Below are positions 13,645-19,372 of a stretch of 34,430 nt of DNA, one piece after another; position 1 is the stretch's first letter, and the number at the start of each line of letters is the position of its first letter. The stretch is from NCBI GenBank assembly GCA_031279635.1, contig JAITIC010000208.1, forward strand, positions 1 to 34,430, written 5' to 3'. The DNA is from Treponema sp. (GTDB taxonomy: Bacteria > Spirochaetota > Spirochaetia > Treponematales > Breznakiellaceae). The position numbers were made by a program, and so were the translations under genes. The notes beneath the pieces are model-generated. The model made no database searches. It had not been told where the DNA came from and saw only the letters and a list, made by a program, of their open reading frames with translations.

Positions 13645-13656
13645 AAATTGAAAACC

Positions 13657-14532
13657 ATGAAAAACATAAAGGTCTTTTTTATTCTGCTGGCTCTGGTTTT
13701 TGAATCATGTAAAAGTAATGATTGTGTTGTCGGCGCCGAACAAGCGGCTCCTCCGCCGGTACTCAAGACCGCTAAAATAATGTCTTTTAACATTCAAATA
13801 TTCGGCGTTTCAAAAATGGCAAAACCGGAAGTGGTTGCTATATTGACCGATATTATATCCCAGGCGGATATTATCGCCATTCAGGAGGTACGATCCGCCG
13901 GAATTGAACCGGTCGAACAGCTTATGGCTTTGCTGCCTGAAAAATACAGTTATGTTATCGGCCCCAGAGAAGGCAGGTCAAGTTCCAAGGAACAATTCTG
14001 GATAATATACGACGCCGCCCTGTTTACGGTTCTGGGACAGGAAACCTGGGCCGACGAGACCGATGTTTTTGAAAGGAATCCGCTCGGCGTGTATTTCAAA
14101 TCCGATGATGATTTTGATTTTATTCTTATCAACAACCATATTCGGCCCGGCTCCGCGGAGGCCGAGATAAACGCTTTGCCGGAGCTTGTTGATTATTACC
14201 ACGATTTATGGAACGAGCCGGATGTGCTTATTGTGGGTGATTTTAACGCCGACGGGCGGTATTATGATGAAGTTCTTCTTGAAAATGTTTTTGATGAATC
14301 GGCGTATAAGATCATTATTAGCAACGAATACGATACCACGACAAATGCGAACGATAATACTTATGATCGTTTTATAATTACATCGTCCGCCATAGAGAAT
14401 TATACCGGCAATTTTGGAATCATCAGGTATGACGAGTTATACGATTTCAGCCAATACGGCATTGAGCCGAAAGAAGTGAGTGACCATTATCCGGTTTGGG
14501 CCGAGTTTTTGCTTTCCGGAGATACCGATTGA
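13657..14532 (+). CDS. Exported endonuclease/exonuclease/phosphatase-fold protein
   Basis: The 291-aa product has the DNase I-like fold. Active-site motifs in order are MSFNIQIFG (Asn), AIQEVRS (metal Glu), INNHIRPG (N-x-H), VGDFNADG (D-x-N) and VSDHYPV (the terminal Asp-His pair). An N-terminal hydrophobic signal ends at Cys18 (LALVFESC), so it may be a lipoprotein. The -2 Glu is unusual for a lipobox. I prefer ATG 13657 to the upstream TTG at 13648. It could be an extracellular nuclease for nucleotide scavenging or a phosphatase. Its last 46 bases overlap the convergent smc gene. Base composition here is more A+T rich than neighbours, which may mark transfer. Confidence 0.85.
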   Translation: MKNIKVFFILLALVFESCKSNDCVVGAEQAAPPPVLKTAKIMSFNIQIFGVSKMAKPEVVAILTDIISQADIIAIQEVRSAGIEPVEQLMALLPEKYSYVIGPREGRSSSKEQFWIIYDAALFTVLGQETWADETDVFERNPLGVYFKSDDDFDFILINNHIRPGSAEAEINALPELVDYYHDLWNEPDVLIVGDFNADGRYYDEVLLENVFDESAYKIIISNEYDTTTNANDNTYDRFIITSSAIENYTGNFGIIRYDELYDFSQYGIEPKEVSDHYPVWAEFLLSGDTD

Positions 14533-17501
14533 ACGCCCCGCGCGGCCCTAATCGGCCGTAACTGCGCCTCGCTGACTTTGCGGGGATCATTCACGCCGAT
14601 GGGCAGTTCCCGGCCCTCTTCGGGAGGCACATCCTCTTCTTCAAAATTGCCCTCTTCGTCCCATAGTTCATGCTGGGGCGGCTCAACATTTGCCTGGGCC
14701 ATTTCCTCATGCTCAATCCGCACGGAGATAAGTTTGGTCACGCCGGATTCTTCCATGGTGACGCCTAACAGAGTGCCCGCGCCGGCGACGGTTTTCTTGT
14801 TGTGGGTGATGACGATGAATTGGCTTGTGCCGCCGAATTCCCGCAAAAGCTGCACAAAGCGGCCCACGTTGACCTCGTCCAAAGCGGCGTCGATTTCGTC
14901 CAACAGACAGAAGGGGCTGGGCTTTACCATGTAAGTGGCGAAGAGCAGGGCCACCGCGGTCATGGAGCGCTCACCGCCAGAGAGCAGAGTGATGTGTTCC
15001 AGTTTTTTCCCCGGCGGCTGGGCAAAAATTTCAATGCCCGATTCCAGCACATGATTAATGTCGGAGAGCCGCAGTTCGGCGCGGCCCCCGCCGAAAAGCC
15101 GGCGGAACATATTGTGAAAATTTTTCCTTATGCGGTTATAGGTGGCAAGGAACAGGTCTGATGATTCCTGGCGGATCTCCGCGGTAAGGGCTTCAAGGTC
15201 TTTGCGGGCTTTTTCGAGGTCGGCTATCTGGTTGCTGAGGAAGTCGTAGCGTTCTTTGGTCTCGACAAATTCTTCCGGGGCCATAAGGTTCACCGATCCC
15301 AGATCCCGCATCTGGGATCGGGCGGCGGTGAGTTTTTCCCGCAGTTCCGCCGGTGCGGCGGTGATCGTAAAAATGCGCTCCTCAAACTCCATCAGATCGC
15401 GAGAGTGGGCTTCCCGGAAATTATCCTGGATGTTTTTGATTTCCGTTTCGGACTGTACCAGTTTCAGATGTATCTTTTCAAGGTCCTCCTGCACTTTGGC
15501 AAGATCCGCCATCCGCTTTTTGATAATCTCCTGCTTGCCCGCCACATCGCCGTTGCGTTTTTGAATTTCCTTCTCAAGTTTTTCCAGTTCGGCGGTAAAC
15601 GCGATTCCCTTTTGCTCAATCCCGGCAATTTCCGACTGCGTATCGGCGATACGCTCATCGGTTTCTTCCAGCCGCTTGCGGTCCAGAAAAAGCTCGTCAC
15701 GGATATTTTTGAGCAGGCTTTCCTGGCTTGCCAATTCCCGCCGGATAAGCCGGGCCTGTTCCTCCGCCGACTGCGCCTGGGCATTCATTCTGGCGCGGCT
15801 CACCCGCAGGTCTTCAAGGGTGGCGCGGTATTCGTCGATTTTTGCGGAGAGGCTTACGTTGTCGCCCCGCAGGGTTTTAATCCGCCCCCGGCGTTCATCG
15901 ATTCCGTCCTTCGCGCCGCGTATTTGCGCGTCCAGAGAGCGTTTTTTGGTGATGATCCCTTCCGGGGCGAGAAACTCGTCGATGAAAGCGGGGGAATGGG
16001 CGCGGTAGCTTTCAAACAGGGCCAGGGCCTTATCCGCGTTGCCGGCGGCTTCGGCAAGGCCGGCGGCCAGTACCCCGGCGACGCGCCTGAGTTCCGCGGG
16101 ATCAAGTCCCGCCCCGCCTGTTGCCGCGGCCGCCGCCAGATCGCGGATCAGCGTTTCCCTGCCGGCAAGAATCGTGCGCAGGCGGCTCAGGGTTTCGTTC
16201 AGGGCAGCCTCGGCGCTTCGGCGCTCAGCGGCGGAATAGCCCGCTTTACGCAGGCCCGCGTCAAGCTCCGCCACAATGTCGTCGGTTATCTTCGCCAGGT
16301 CTTTTTCAAAGGCCGCCTGCTCTTTTTCAAGGCCGTGAATATCTTCCTCTGCCTTTAGCACCGCCTTCTCGTTGTCGCCGATACGGACGGCGGCAAGCTG
16401 GATGTTTTCCTCAAAGGAGCGGATATTCGCTTCGATGTCTTCGGCCTTTTTCCGCAGACTCCGCAACACATCGTCCTGCTCGGCGGCGTCCTCGTTCAGT
16501 TCTTCAATTTTAACGCCGATCTGTTTTTCCCTGGTCTCGTTCTGCTTGATCTTTATGCCGCTCTCGTTCCGCTGTTCGCCCAGCAGCCTTACCTCGTTTT
16601 CCCGCGCGTTTTTTTCCAGCGCAAGACCGTAGATGTTTTTCTGCAGCTCCACCAGATGGGCTTCCATGGAGTTTACCTCGTCCATGTGCGCTTCCAGGGC
16701 CTTGTTCTCCGCCTCCATTTCCGCCCTGATTCGGTCCCGGTCAACGGTACGGCGTTTGAGGGTTTCCTTCCGCTCGTCCCGCTCGTACTTGAACTGCTTG
16801 AGGCGCAAAAGTTGAATGTCCAACTCGTAGTTAAAAATCTCGTCCCGCAAGGCGCGGTATTTCAGGGTCTTTTCGGCCTGGACCTTGAGCGTGTCGTAAG
16901 AGCGCTTCACCTCGCTGAGGATCACCTCAACCTGGCGCATGTTTTCTTCGGTCTTGGCGAGGTTCCGCTCGGCCTCGGCGCCCCGCTCCTTGAAACGGGT
17001 GATCCCCGCGGCTTCCTCAAACAGGTAGCGCCGCTCGTCGGGTTTGGAAGAAAGCACCTGATCGATTTTTCCCTGCTCCATCACCGAATAGGCCGTCTTG
17101 CCTACCCCGGTATCCCAGAACAGTTCGCGGATGTCCTTGAGGCGCACCTGGGCGGCGTTGATAAAGTATTCGCTTTCGCCGGAGCGGTACAGGCGGCGCT
17201 TAATCTCCACCTCCGGCATGTCCAGGGGCAGCAACCCCGCCTCATTTGCCAGGGTAAGGGTTACTTCCGCCACGTTAAGCGGCTTGCGCACATCGGTCCC
17301 GTTGAAAATCACGTCCTCCATCTTTTCCGCCCGCAGGGACTTGGAGGCGTGTTCCCCCAGCACCCACTTTACCGCGTCCACCACATTGGACTTTCCGCAG
17401 CCGTTTGGCCCCAGGAGGGCGGTTATACCGTCGCAAAACTCAATTTCAGTGCGGTCGGCAAAAGATTTGAAACCGAAGATGGTAAGATGTTTCAGGAACA
17501 A
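14487..17501 (-). CDS. smc: Chromosome segregation protein SMC, short form
   Basis: The 1004-aa ATPase of the condensin complex organises chromosomes. The N-terminal head has GFKSFAD, Walker A GPNGCGKS (31-38) and the SMC-type FEEAAGI segment (161-167). Two long coiled-coil arms flank the centre. The C-terminal head has SVNLMAPEE, signature LSGGERS (from 840) and Walker B CLLDEID. Typical bacterial SMC is about 1150-1190 aa. The roughly 150-residue hinge is not recognisable; the centre (about 405-525) is Ala-rich, partly helical and lacks hinge glycine motifs and Rad50-type CxxC. About 74 residues after 930 form an acidic then basic tail not usual in SMC. The start is TTG 17501, with GGAG seven bases upstream. 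It converges on and overlaps the nuclease-fold gene. Confidence 0.92.
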   Translation of the reverse strand: MFLKHLTIFGFKSFADRTEIEFCDGITALLGPNGCGKSNVVDAVKWVLGEHASKSLRAEKMEDVIFNGTDVRKPLNVAEVTLTLANEAGLLPLDMPEVEIKRRLYRSGESEYFINAAQVRLKDIRELFWDTGVGKTAYSVMEQGKIDQVLSSKPDERRYLFEEAAGITRFKERGAEAERNLAKTEENMRQVEVILSEVKRSYDTLKVQAEKTLKYRALRDEIFNYELDIQLLRLKQFKYERDERKETLKRRTVDRDRIRAEMEAENKALEAHMDEVNSMEAHLVELQKNIYGLALEKNARENEVRLLGEQRNESGIKIKQNETREKQIGVKIEELNEDAAEQDDVLRSLRKKAEDIEANIRSFEENIQLAAVRIGDNEKAVLKAEEDIHGLEKEQAAFEKDLAKITDDIVAELDAGLRKAGYSAAERRSAEAALNETLSRLRTILAGRETLIRDLAAAAATGGAGLDPAELRRVAGVLAAGLAEAAGNADKALALFESYRAHSPAFIDEFLAPEGIITKKRSLDAQIRGAKDGIDERRGRIKTLRGDNVSLSAKIDEYRATLEDLRVSRARMNAQAQSAEEQARLIRRELASQESLLKNIRDELFLDRKRLEETDERIADTQSEIAGIEQKGIAFTAELEKLEKEIQKRNGDVAGKQEIIKKRMADLAKVQEDLEKIHLKLVQSETEIKNIQDNFREAHSRDLMEFEERIFTITAAPAELREKLTAARSQMRDLGSVNLMAPEEFVETKERYDFLSNQIADLEKARKDLEALTAEIRQESSDLFLATYNRIRKNFHNMFRRLFGGGRAELRLSDINHVLESGIEIFAQPPGKKLEHITLLSGGERSMTAVALLFATYMVKPSPFCLLDEIDAALDEVNVGRFVQLLREFGGTSQFIVITHNKKTVAGAGTLLGVTMEESGVTKLISVRIEHEEMAQANVEPPQHELWDEEGNFEEEDVPPEEGRELPIGVNDPRKVSEAQLRPIRAARGVQSVSPESKNSAQTG

Positions 17502-17667: not shown

Positions 17668-18465
17668 TCAGGGCTGCTTCCCGATATAGGCGAGAATACC
17701 GCCGTCCACGTACAGGATATGCCCGTTGATAAAATCCGATGCGCGGGAGGCGAGGAATACCGCGGGGCCTTTGAGGTCGCCGGTGGTTCCCCAACGGGCC
17801 GCCGGGGTTTTGGCGATGATAAACTGGTCAAAGGGATGGCGGCTGCCGTCGCTCTGCCGTTCACGCAGAGGTGCGGTCTGGGGGGTTTCGATATAGCCGG
17901 GACCGATGCCGTTGCACTGGATGTTAAAGCCGCCGTATTCGCTGGCGATATTTCTGGTGAGCATTTTCAGCCCGCCCTTGGCCGCGGCGTAAGCGCTGAC
18001 CGTTTCGCGGCCCAGTTCGCTCATCATGCTGCAAATATTGATGATCTTTCCCCCGCCTTTTTTTATCATCGAGGGGATCACCGCCTTGGAAACAATAAAC
18101 GGCGCGTTAAGGTCCACGTCGATGACCGTGCGGAAATCCGCGGCGCTCATCTCCGTCATGGGGATCCGCTTGATGATTCCCGCGTTGTTGACCAGTATGT
18201 CAATAACGCCGACTTCTTTTTCAATTCTTGCCGCCGTTTCATTGACGGCCTTTTCATCGGTAACATCGCAGACATAGCCGCGCGCGGGAATATTCGCCTC
18301 CCGGTAAGCAGCCAGCCCCTTGTCAACCTGGGACTGTCCGATGTCGTTGAATACCACGGTTGCCCCCGCATCGGCATAAGCCTGTGCGATGGCAAAACCG
18401 ATACCGTAGGATGCCCCGGTAATCCAGGCTGTTTTTCCCTCCAATGAAAAATCAATCGCGCTCAT
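17668..18465 (-). CDS. kduD: Short-chain dehydrogenase, KduD type
   Basis: The 265-aa Rossmann-fold protein is a classical SDR with TGASYGIG (cofactor loop, residues 16-23), NNAG near 92, catalytic Ser in ICSMMSE and the YAAAK pair near 161-165. With kduI immediately upstream the best call is 2-dehydro-3-deoxy-D-gluconate 5-dehydrogenase, which reduces 3-deoxy-D-glycero-2,5-hexodiulosonate to 2-keto-3-deoxygluconate. Gluconate 5-dehydrogenase is the main alternative because the two families are close. A ribosome site AAGGAGG stands just before ATG 18465. It is likely cotranscribed with kduI through a 70-base gap that contains a strong hairpin. Confidence 0.85.
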   Translation of the reverse strand: MSAIDFSLEGKTAWITGASYGIGFAIAQAYADAGATVVFNDIGQSQVDKGLAAYREANIPARGYVCDVTDEKAVNETAARIEKEVGVIDILVNNAGIIKRIPMTEMSAADFRTVIDVDLNAPFIVSKAVIPSMIKKGGGKIINICSMMSELGRETVSAYAAAKGGLKMLTRNIASEYGGFNIQCNGIGPGYIETPQTAPLRERQSDGSRHPFDQFIIAKTPAARWGTTGDLKGPAVFLASRASDFINGHILYVDGGILAYIGKQP

Positions 18466-18501
18466 ATTTCCTCCTTAGATAAAGACTAACGCTGCCGCAC
18501 A

Positions 18502-18526
18502 TTTCCCCAAACCTCGGTTTTGGGAA
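18502..18526. terminator. Intercistronic hairpin between kduI and kduD
   Basis: Arms TTTCCC-C-AAACC and GGTTT-T-GGGAAA form an 11-bp stem with one mismatch and a tiny loop. It lies ten bases after the kduI stop on the minus strand. No T-run follows, so it may stabilise or process the message, not end it fully. Confidence 0.55.
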
Positions 18527-18535
18527 AGCCGTTTT

Positions 18536-19372
18536 TCATTTTAATTCCGCGGCGGGAACCGTATCCATATCGTCGAAAGTTTGATTTTCCCCAGCCATGG
18601 CCCAGATAAAGGTATAGGCCGAGGTTCCCGCCCCGGCGTGGATCGACCAGGACGGGGAGATAACCGCTTCCTCGTTGTTCATCACGATATGCCGCGTTTC
18701 CCCCGGCTGGCCGTGCAGGTGGAACACCACGCCGCCGGGCTTCATGTCGAAATAAAAATAAACTTCCATCCGCCGCTCGTGGGTATGGCAGGGCATGGTA
18801 TTCCACACCGAGCCTTCTTCCAGGACGGTCATGCCCATGACGAGCTGACAGCTTTCGCAGACCGCGGGGTGGACGTACTGATAAATAGTGCGGACATTCA
18901 CCGCCGCCGCCTCTCCCAGCCTGCGGGGATTGGCCTTTTCAATGGGAATAAACACCGTCGGGTACGCCGCGTGGGCCGGCGCGCTTGCCAGGTAAAACTT
19001 CGGGGGATTGCCCCTGTCGGCGGCGGAAAACAGCACGTCCTTCACACCCTTGCCGATATACAGGCCGTCCCCTTTTTTCATCGCGTATTCCGCGCCGTCC
19101 GCGGACACCTTTCCCGCGCCGCCGATACAGATGATTCCCAGTTCCCGGCGCTCCAGAAATATATCGGTCCCAAAGTCCTTGCCCCCTTCCAGGCGCAGAA
19201 CCTTGTCAACCGGATAAGCCCCGCCGAAAACAACCCGGTCAGAATGGGTGTAACAAAGGCTGATATCGTCCTTCACAAAAACACGCTCAAAGTGAAAACG
19301 CTCCCGCATTTTTTGGGTGTCATACAGTTTCATGTCGCCGGGATGTTCGGCATAACGGATTTCCAGTTTCAT
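18536..19372 (-). CDS. kduI: 5-keto-4-deoxyuronate isomerase
   Basis: The 278-aa cupin enzyme isomerises 5-keto-4-deoxyuronate (4-deoxy-L-threo-5-hexosulose uronate) from cleaved pectin to the hexodiulosonate used by KduD. The zinc ligands are visible and line up in number with the E. coli enzyme: His196 and His198 in MPCHTHERRMEVYFYF, Glu203, and His245 in SPSWSIHAG. Length equals the family's. A GGAGG at 19380-19384 is seven bases before ATG 19372. It is the first gene of a kduI-kduD operon, implying that unsaturated uronates from pectin or rhamnogalacturonan are used. Confidence 0.96.
   Translation of the reverse strand: MKLEIRYAEHPGDMKLYDTQKMRERFHFERVFVKDDISLCYTHSDRVVFGGAYPVDKVLRLEGGKDFGTDIFLERRELGIICIGGAGKVSADGAEYAMKKGDGLYIGKGVKDVLFSAADRGNPPKFYLASAPAHAAYPTVFIPIEKANPRRLGEAAAVNVRTIYQYVHPAVCESCQLVMGMTVLEEGSVWNTMPCHTHERRMEVYFYFDMKPGGVVFHLHGQPGETRHIVMNNEEAVISPSWSIHAGAGTSAYTFIWAMAGENQTFDDMDTVPAAELK

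Follow-up and report, generated by a model that had tools for sequence, protein, structure and literature searches.

The hinge counts as a defining feature of SMC proteins and is regarded as the gate through which DNA enters the ring, and in some bacterial SMCs both hinge and coiled-coil parts are reportedly shorter (Soppa 2001, in Gene). Hinges and unrelated apex domains can stand in for one another: B. subtilis Smc carrying a Rad50 zinc hook instead of its hinge, Smc(Zh), works in cells and grows normally on rich medium (PMC5344682), and in fission yeast Rad50 the hook can give way to the hinge of MukB or of B. subtilis SMC (PMC6969161). The natural variation of arm length has been surveyed with SMC sequences that were gathered using a hinge alignment as query, so that SMCs devoid of a hinge would tend to escape the survey (PMC5344682). 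Among spirochaetes, a Hi-C study of Borrelia calls Smc 'canonical', ascribes the missing inter-arm contacts to the absence of ScpB and does not mention the hinge (PMC10406323). A search confined to the open literature found no description of a missing or replaced hinge in spirochaetes, so priority for hinge replacement is not established.

The smc gene described here occupies positions 14487-17501 of the window (the whole 34,430-nucleotide stretch of Treponema sp. DNA that was analysed) and lies on the minus strand only, the plus strand of the same interval not being the gene. From a TTG start codon (17499-17501) to a stop at 14489-14487 it encodes 1004 residues; TTG is also the start codon of Borrelia smc (PMC9712426), and among 76 relatives aligned at the start of the head, 49 have TTG, 26 ATG and 1 GTG. 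The product is a genuine SMC with both ATPase half-heads intact, as an earlier note on this DNA had read it: it matches SMC_prok_B (TIGR02168) of NCBIfam with 848 bits (cut-off 567) and SMC_N (PF02463) of Pfam, the solved Smc heads 5xg3 and 3zgx match it strongly (E about 1e-137), and every ATPase motif is found. The N-terminal half-head (residues 1-165, end approximate; 17007-17501) contains the Walker A sequence GPNGCGKS (17388-17411), and the C-terminal half-head (residues ~751-930; 14712-15251) harbors both the signature LSGGERSM, whose LSGGE lies at 14970-14984, and DEIDAAL (14880-14900); Walker B reads FCLLDEIDAALDE, and an H-loop-like ITHN completes the set. The last ~75 residues form a variable, acidic and proline-rich C-terminal tail (residues ~931-1004; 14490-14711) that is poorly conserved, so that the conserved SMC core spans ~930 residues. 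The length to which the same note had drawn attention is correct, but by itself it is no evidence of hinge loss, because the SMC of Mycoplasmopsis cynos, with only 978 residues, has a complete hinge.

What sets the protein apart is its centre, where the alpha/beta hinge is missing. SMC_hinge (PF06470) matches neither the SMC itself nor anything else in its own genome, and across 149 Spirochaetota genomes it finds a single protein, which is not an SMC: a full-length Wadjet JetC1 (E 4e-161) encoded by a genome of the Treponema order (G116, locus L031). Because the Pfam model also misses several real proteobacterial hinges, giving no match in Acinetobacter and remaining under the cut-off in Legionella and Azospirillum, little weight attaches to its lack of a match, and hinge and tip profiles were therefore built for comparison. 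Matches of the purpose-built hinge profile all stayed at E 0.007 or above, and smc was not among them; as this profile scarcely detects two held-out proteobacterial hinges, HMM negatives were not relied upon alone, and profile-profile comparison and structure prediction were added. The failures of both models on true hinges are what could be said for a centre that is a strongly diverged SMC hinge, invisible to sequence methods. However, in profile-profile comparison the hinges of Bacillota and proteobacteria recognise each other (96.8%, E 3e-10), and the tips of Treponematales recognise those of other spirochaete families (99.2%, E 7.6e-20), with at least the last ~65 tip columns shared by the long-armed families (88-96%); any tip against any hinge remains at about 4% or less, which is no match. 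Moreover, the tip mostly measures ~95-120 residues, whereas hinge segments in other bacteria run to ~157-198, and two structure models are entirely helical. A hidden hinge is accordingly very improbable, and the absence that the earlier note had claimed holds by Pfam, the dedicated HMM, profile-profile comparison and structure prediction alike; the diverged fold that it had named as a possible refutation was sought by all four approaches and not found.

Like Rad50/SbcC, the protein is a long-armed ABC ATPase with a non-hinge apex, but its heads are of SMC rather than Rad50 type by model score. A Rad50-type zinc hook is ruled out, because CxxC is absent not only from the apex, where the note had already recorded its absence, but from the entire protein; the same feature distinguishes it from the artificial Smc(Zh), which depends on zinc and CxxC. 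Identity with Wadjet JetC was likewise rejected, as the PADLOC JetC models give weak coiled-coil matches instead of one over the full length. With SMC-type half-heads, the order head-arm-tip-arm-head and ScpA/ScpB in the genomes of most relatives, it resembles the Smc of B. subtilis, from which it differs by the lack of SMC_hinge, the helical tip and arms that are ~90-100 residues shorter; lacking a PF06470 hinge at the apex, it is therefore filed as a variant and not as a canonical Smc-ScpAB member.

Residues ~405-523 (15933-16289) constitute a different domain, predicted to be all-helical. An AlphaFold2 model of residues 340-630, based on 64 sequences (mean pLDDT 86.5), consists of two long helices, which flank the tip as two continuous, antiparallel coiled-coil arms with pLDDT over 90, and of a helical tip with a moderate pLDDT of 58-78; a second model, of the tip alone (58 sequences, pLDDT 80.6), shows five helices, and neither contains a strand. 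In fold searches the best matches of the arms model are SMC coiled-coil segments, whose shape is generic, and Foldseek returned no match under E 0.2 for the tip alone; its VIA matches, scattered over ESCRT-III, Vipp1, chemoreceptors and channels, have a Z of about 9-10.6, as is usual for helical hairpins, and no kinship is read into them.

Conservation is concentrated at the borders of the domain. Its entry motif ITDDIVAELD (residues 405-414; 16260-16289) and its exit motif FIDEFLAPEGIITKKR (residues 506-521; 15939-15986) are near-invariant in 58 relatives, unlike the adjoining coil, and rank among the best conserved stretches between heads and necks, with a variable hairpin between them. The Ala-rich centre on which the earlier note had based its reading does exist (~445-490), but it is the least conserved part and a feature of the lineage; the informative parts are the conserved borders. 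In Treponematales the exit follows the pattern F[IL]xxF[LI]xPEGxxxxKR, and phylum-wide all that remains of it is a Gly with a Lys five residues further on (GxxxxK). Since the conserved motif at the apex includes a basic TKKR, the tip could alternatively be a place where another protein, or DNA, docks; that partner, and not the tip, would then bridge two SMCs. No candidate partner is known, however, and other families retain only the Gx4K element of the motif, which makes such an arrangement quite unlikely.

The spacing of the tip from the heads is nearly invariant. Walker A and the start of the tip are separated by exactly 375 residues in nearly every family sampled, and the end of the tip and LSGGE by 312-318; four families have longer arms (424/391 for the same two distances) and Borrelia-like proteins shorter ones (333/287). 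Several spirochaete families (L032-L035 and L037) have SMC ORFs of 1076-1130 residues, with arms ~50-75 residues longer and the same kind of exit motif. In the protein under study the N-terminal arm comprises residues ~166-404 (16290-17006), ~90-100 residues under the Bacillus length, and the C-terminal arm residues ~524-750 (15252-15932). Compared with Bacillus (residues 31 to ~495-505 and ~668-690 to 1089), each arm is 82-108 residues shorter, with approximate boundaries. If the arm of B. subtilis is taken as 344 residues, the spirochaete arms would measure about 240-258, again with approximate boundaries; the natural mode of arm length is 238 and engineered arms of 253-267 residues are functional (PMC5344682), so that they would lie near the former and overlap the latter.

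The hinge has been swapped in nearly the whole spirochaete phylum, and this is neither an accident nor an artefact. Relatives of the SMC are encoded by 80 named termite-gut and other Treponema-type genomes and by 145 of the 149 genomes sampled across the phylum, most of them as full-length single frames without a hinge, which excludes chance; the tip profile is detected in 57 of 60 close relatives and in 240 of 296 Spirochaetota genomes. The nearest named relatives, with tip identities of 96% and 90%, are Treponema MAGs that, judging from their isolate names, most likely come from termite guts. A conserved alternative in relatives, for which the earlier note had suggested looking, thus exists, and the same note's proviso of a sequencing deletion is answered by the same comparison. 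The own genome is indeed a draft of 3.1 Mb in 276 contigs, 91% complete, as would suit a hinge lost by an assembly or sequencing deletion in this copy; but the same tip recurs in independent assemblies, many of them single-contig genomes, and the idea, which has next to no probability left, is refuted. The phylum-wide occurrence, the shorter arms and the retention of ScpAB had gone unmentioned in that note.

The genomes missed by the tip profile belong largely to a single family (f5), whose genomes are small and carry smc near 42-45 kb. Because this agrees with the published position of Borrelia BB0045 (PMC9712426), the family is taken to be Borreliaceae; family labels other than Treponema are likewise deduced rather than given. 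The Borrelia burgdorferi protein BB0045 is itself a spirochaete SMC, and its Borrelia-like orthologues (ORFs of 821-835 residues) also lack a hinge match, but their arms are shorter still, their tip, which measures 81 residues within the aligned region, goes unrecognised by the Treponema-type profile, and ScpB is missing. Because the tips of these and a few other families (L038, L039, L047, L048 and L052-L054) are unrecognised or marginal, homology of the tip over the whole phylum goes beyond the data. The hinge was presumably exchanged for a helical module in the ancestor of the phylum; the tree of SMC heads shows one change in 44% of bootstraps and, with the Borrelia-like rows on very long branches, does not resolve a single origin.

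The partners of the complex have been kept in most of the phylum. Of the 149 Spirochaetota genomes, 134 encode ScpA and 134 ScpB, and the protein is therefore assigned to an Smc-ScpAB condensin with a replaced apex. Neither ScpA nor ScpB is matched in the own draft genome, which is probably an assembly gap; each of the six relatives from its family has ScpA. Two genomes (G011 and G087) show the reverse, with ScpA and ScpB present and no clear SMC relative, reflecting either an assembly gap or a very divergent partner. The immediate surroundings of smc are little conserved: a plus-strand ORF (13648-14532) that converges on the gene and reads as endonuclease/exonuclease-like overlaps its 3' end by 46 bases (14487-14532) and is kept next to it in the two nearest relatives only (L072 and L073). 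Two genes upstream on the same strand (17668-19372) read as an SDR oxidoreductase and a KduI-like isomerase; no close copies of them were found beside smc in 80 relatives.

Taken together, these features suggest that the tip is probably a substitute dimerisation module of the Smc-ScpAB ring. In this SMC subunit of the chromosomal condensin of spirochaetes, the helical module would take over the job of the hinge by linking two SMC arms at the apex, where two protomers would pack against each other through their helical hairpins and the conserved motifs at entry and exit. Contact between tips would then close the ring at one end, the heads together with ScpAB would close it at the other, and ATP-driven translocation of DNA would proceed as in other Smc-ScpAB complexes, albeit with short arms of ~240-258 residues; the conserved basic TKKR is a putative DNA contact.

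Two observations count against a dimerising tip: its distal hairpin shows little conservation, contrary to what a dimer interface formed by the whole hairpin would lead one to expect, and its pLDDT in the longer model is only moderate. The same two observations agree with a tip that does not dimerise, two SMCs being joined only through their ATP-engaged heads, through ScpAB and through arms lying side by side; the apex would then be open, and DNA entry and loop formation would differ from those of classical SMC. The lack of inter-arm contacts in Borrelia burgdorferi Hi-C maps despite the presence of Smc (PMC10406323) also points in this direction. The Borrelia phenotype is confounded by the missing ScpB, however, an interface at the apex is favoured by the strong conservation of the entry and exit motifs at precisely this point, and the invariant arm length is what is expected of a two-armed ring. 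An open apex is consequently unlikely, and a dimerising tip remains the preferred reading.

The earlier note had concluded that without a hinge, dimerisation and loop formation must work differently. This is too strong: because the swaps in B. subtilis, where cells with the zinc hook grow normally (PMC5344682), and in fission yeast (PMC6969161) work, a hinge can be replaced without a new mechanism, and by analogy the mechanism could stay the same with a different dimeriser at the tip. There is a small chance, on the other hand, that a whole phylum has a condensin with no dimeriser at the apex, or with a new helical one that opens and closes unlike a hinge, in which case models of DNA entry and loop extrusion based on the hinge would not apply there.

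In summary, spirochaetes offer a natural, phylum-wide parallel, with ScpAB retained, to the hinge swap engineered in B. subtilis, and this product of evolution makes it testable which functions of the hinge are dispensable.
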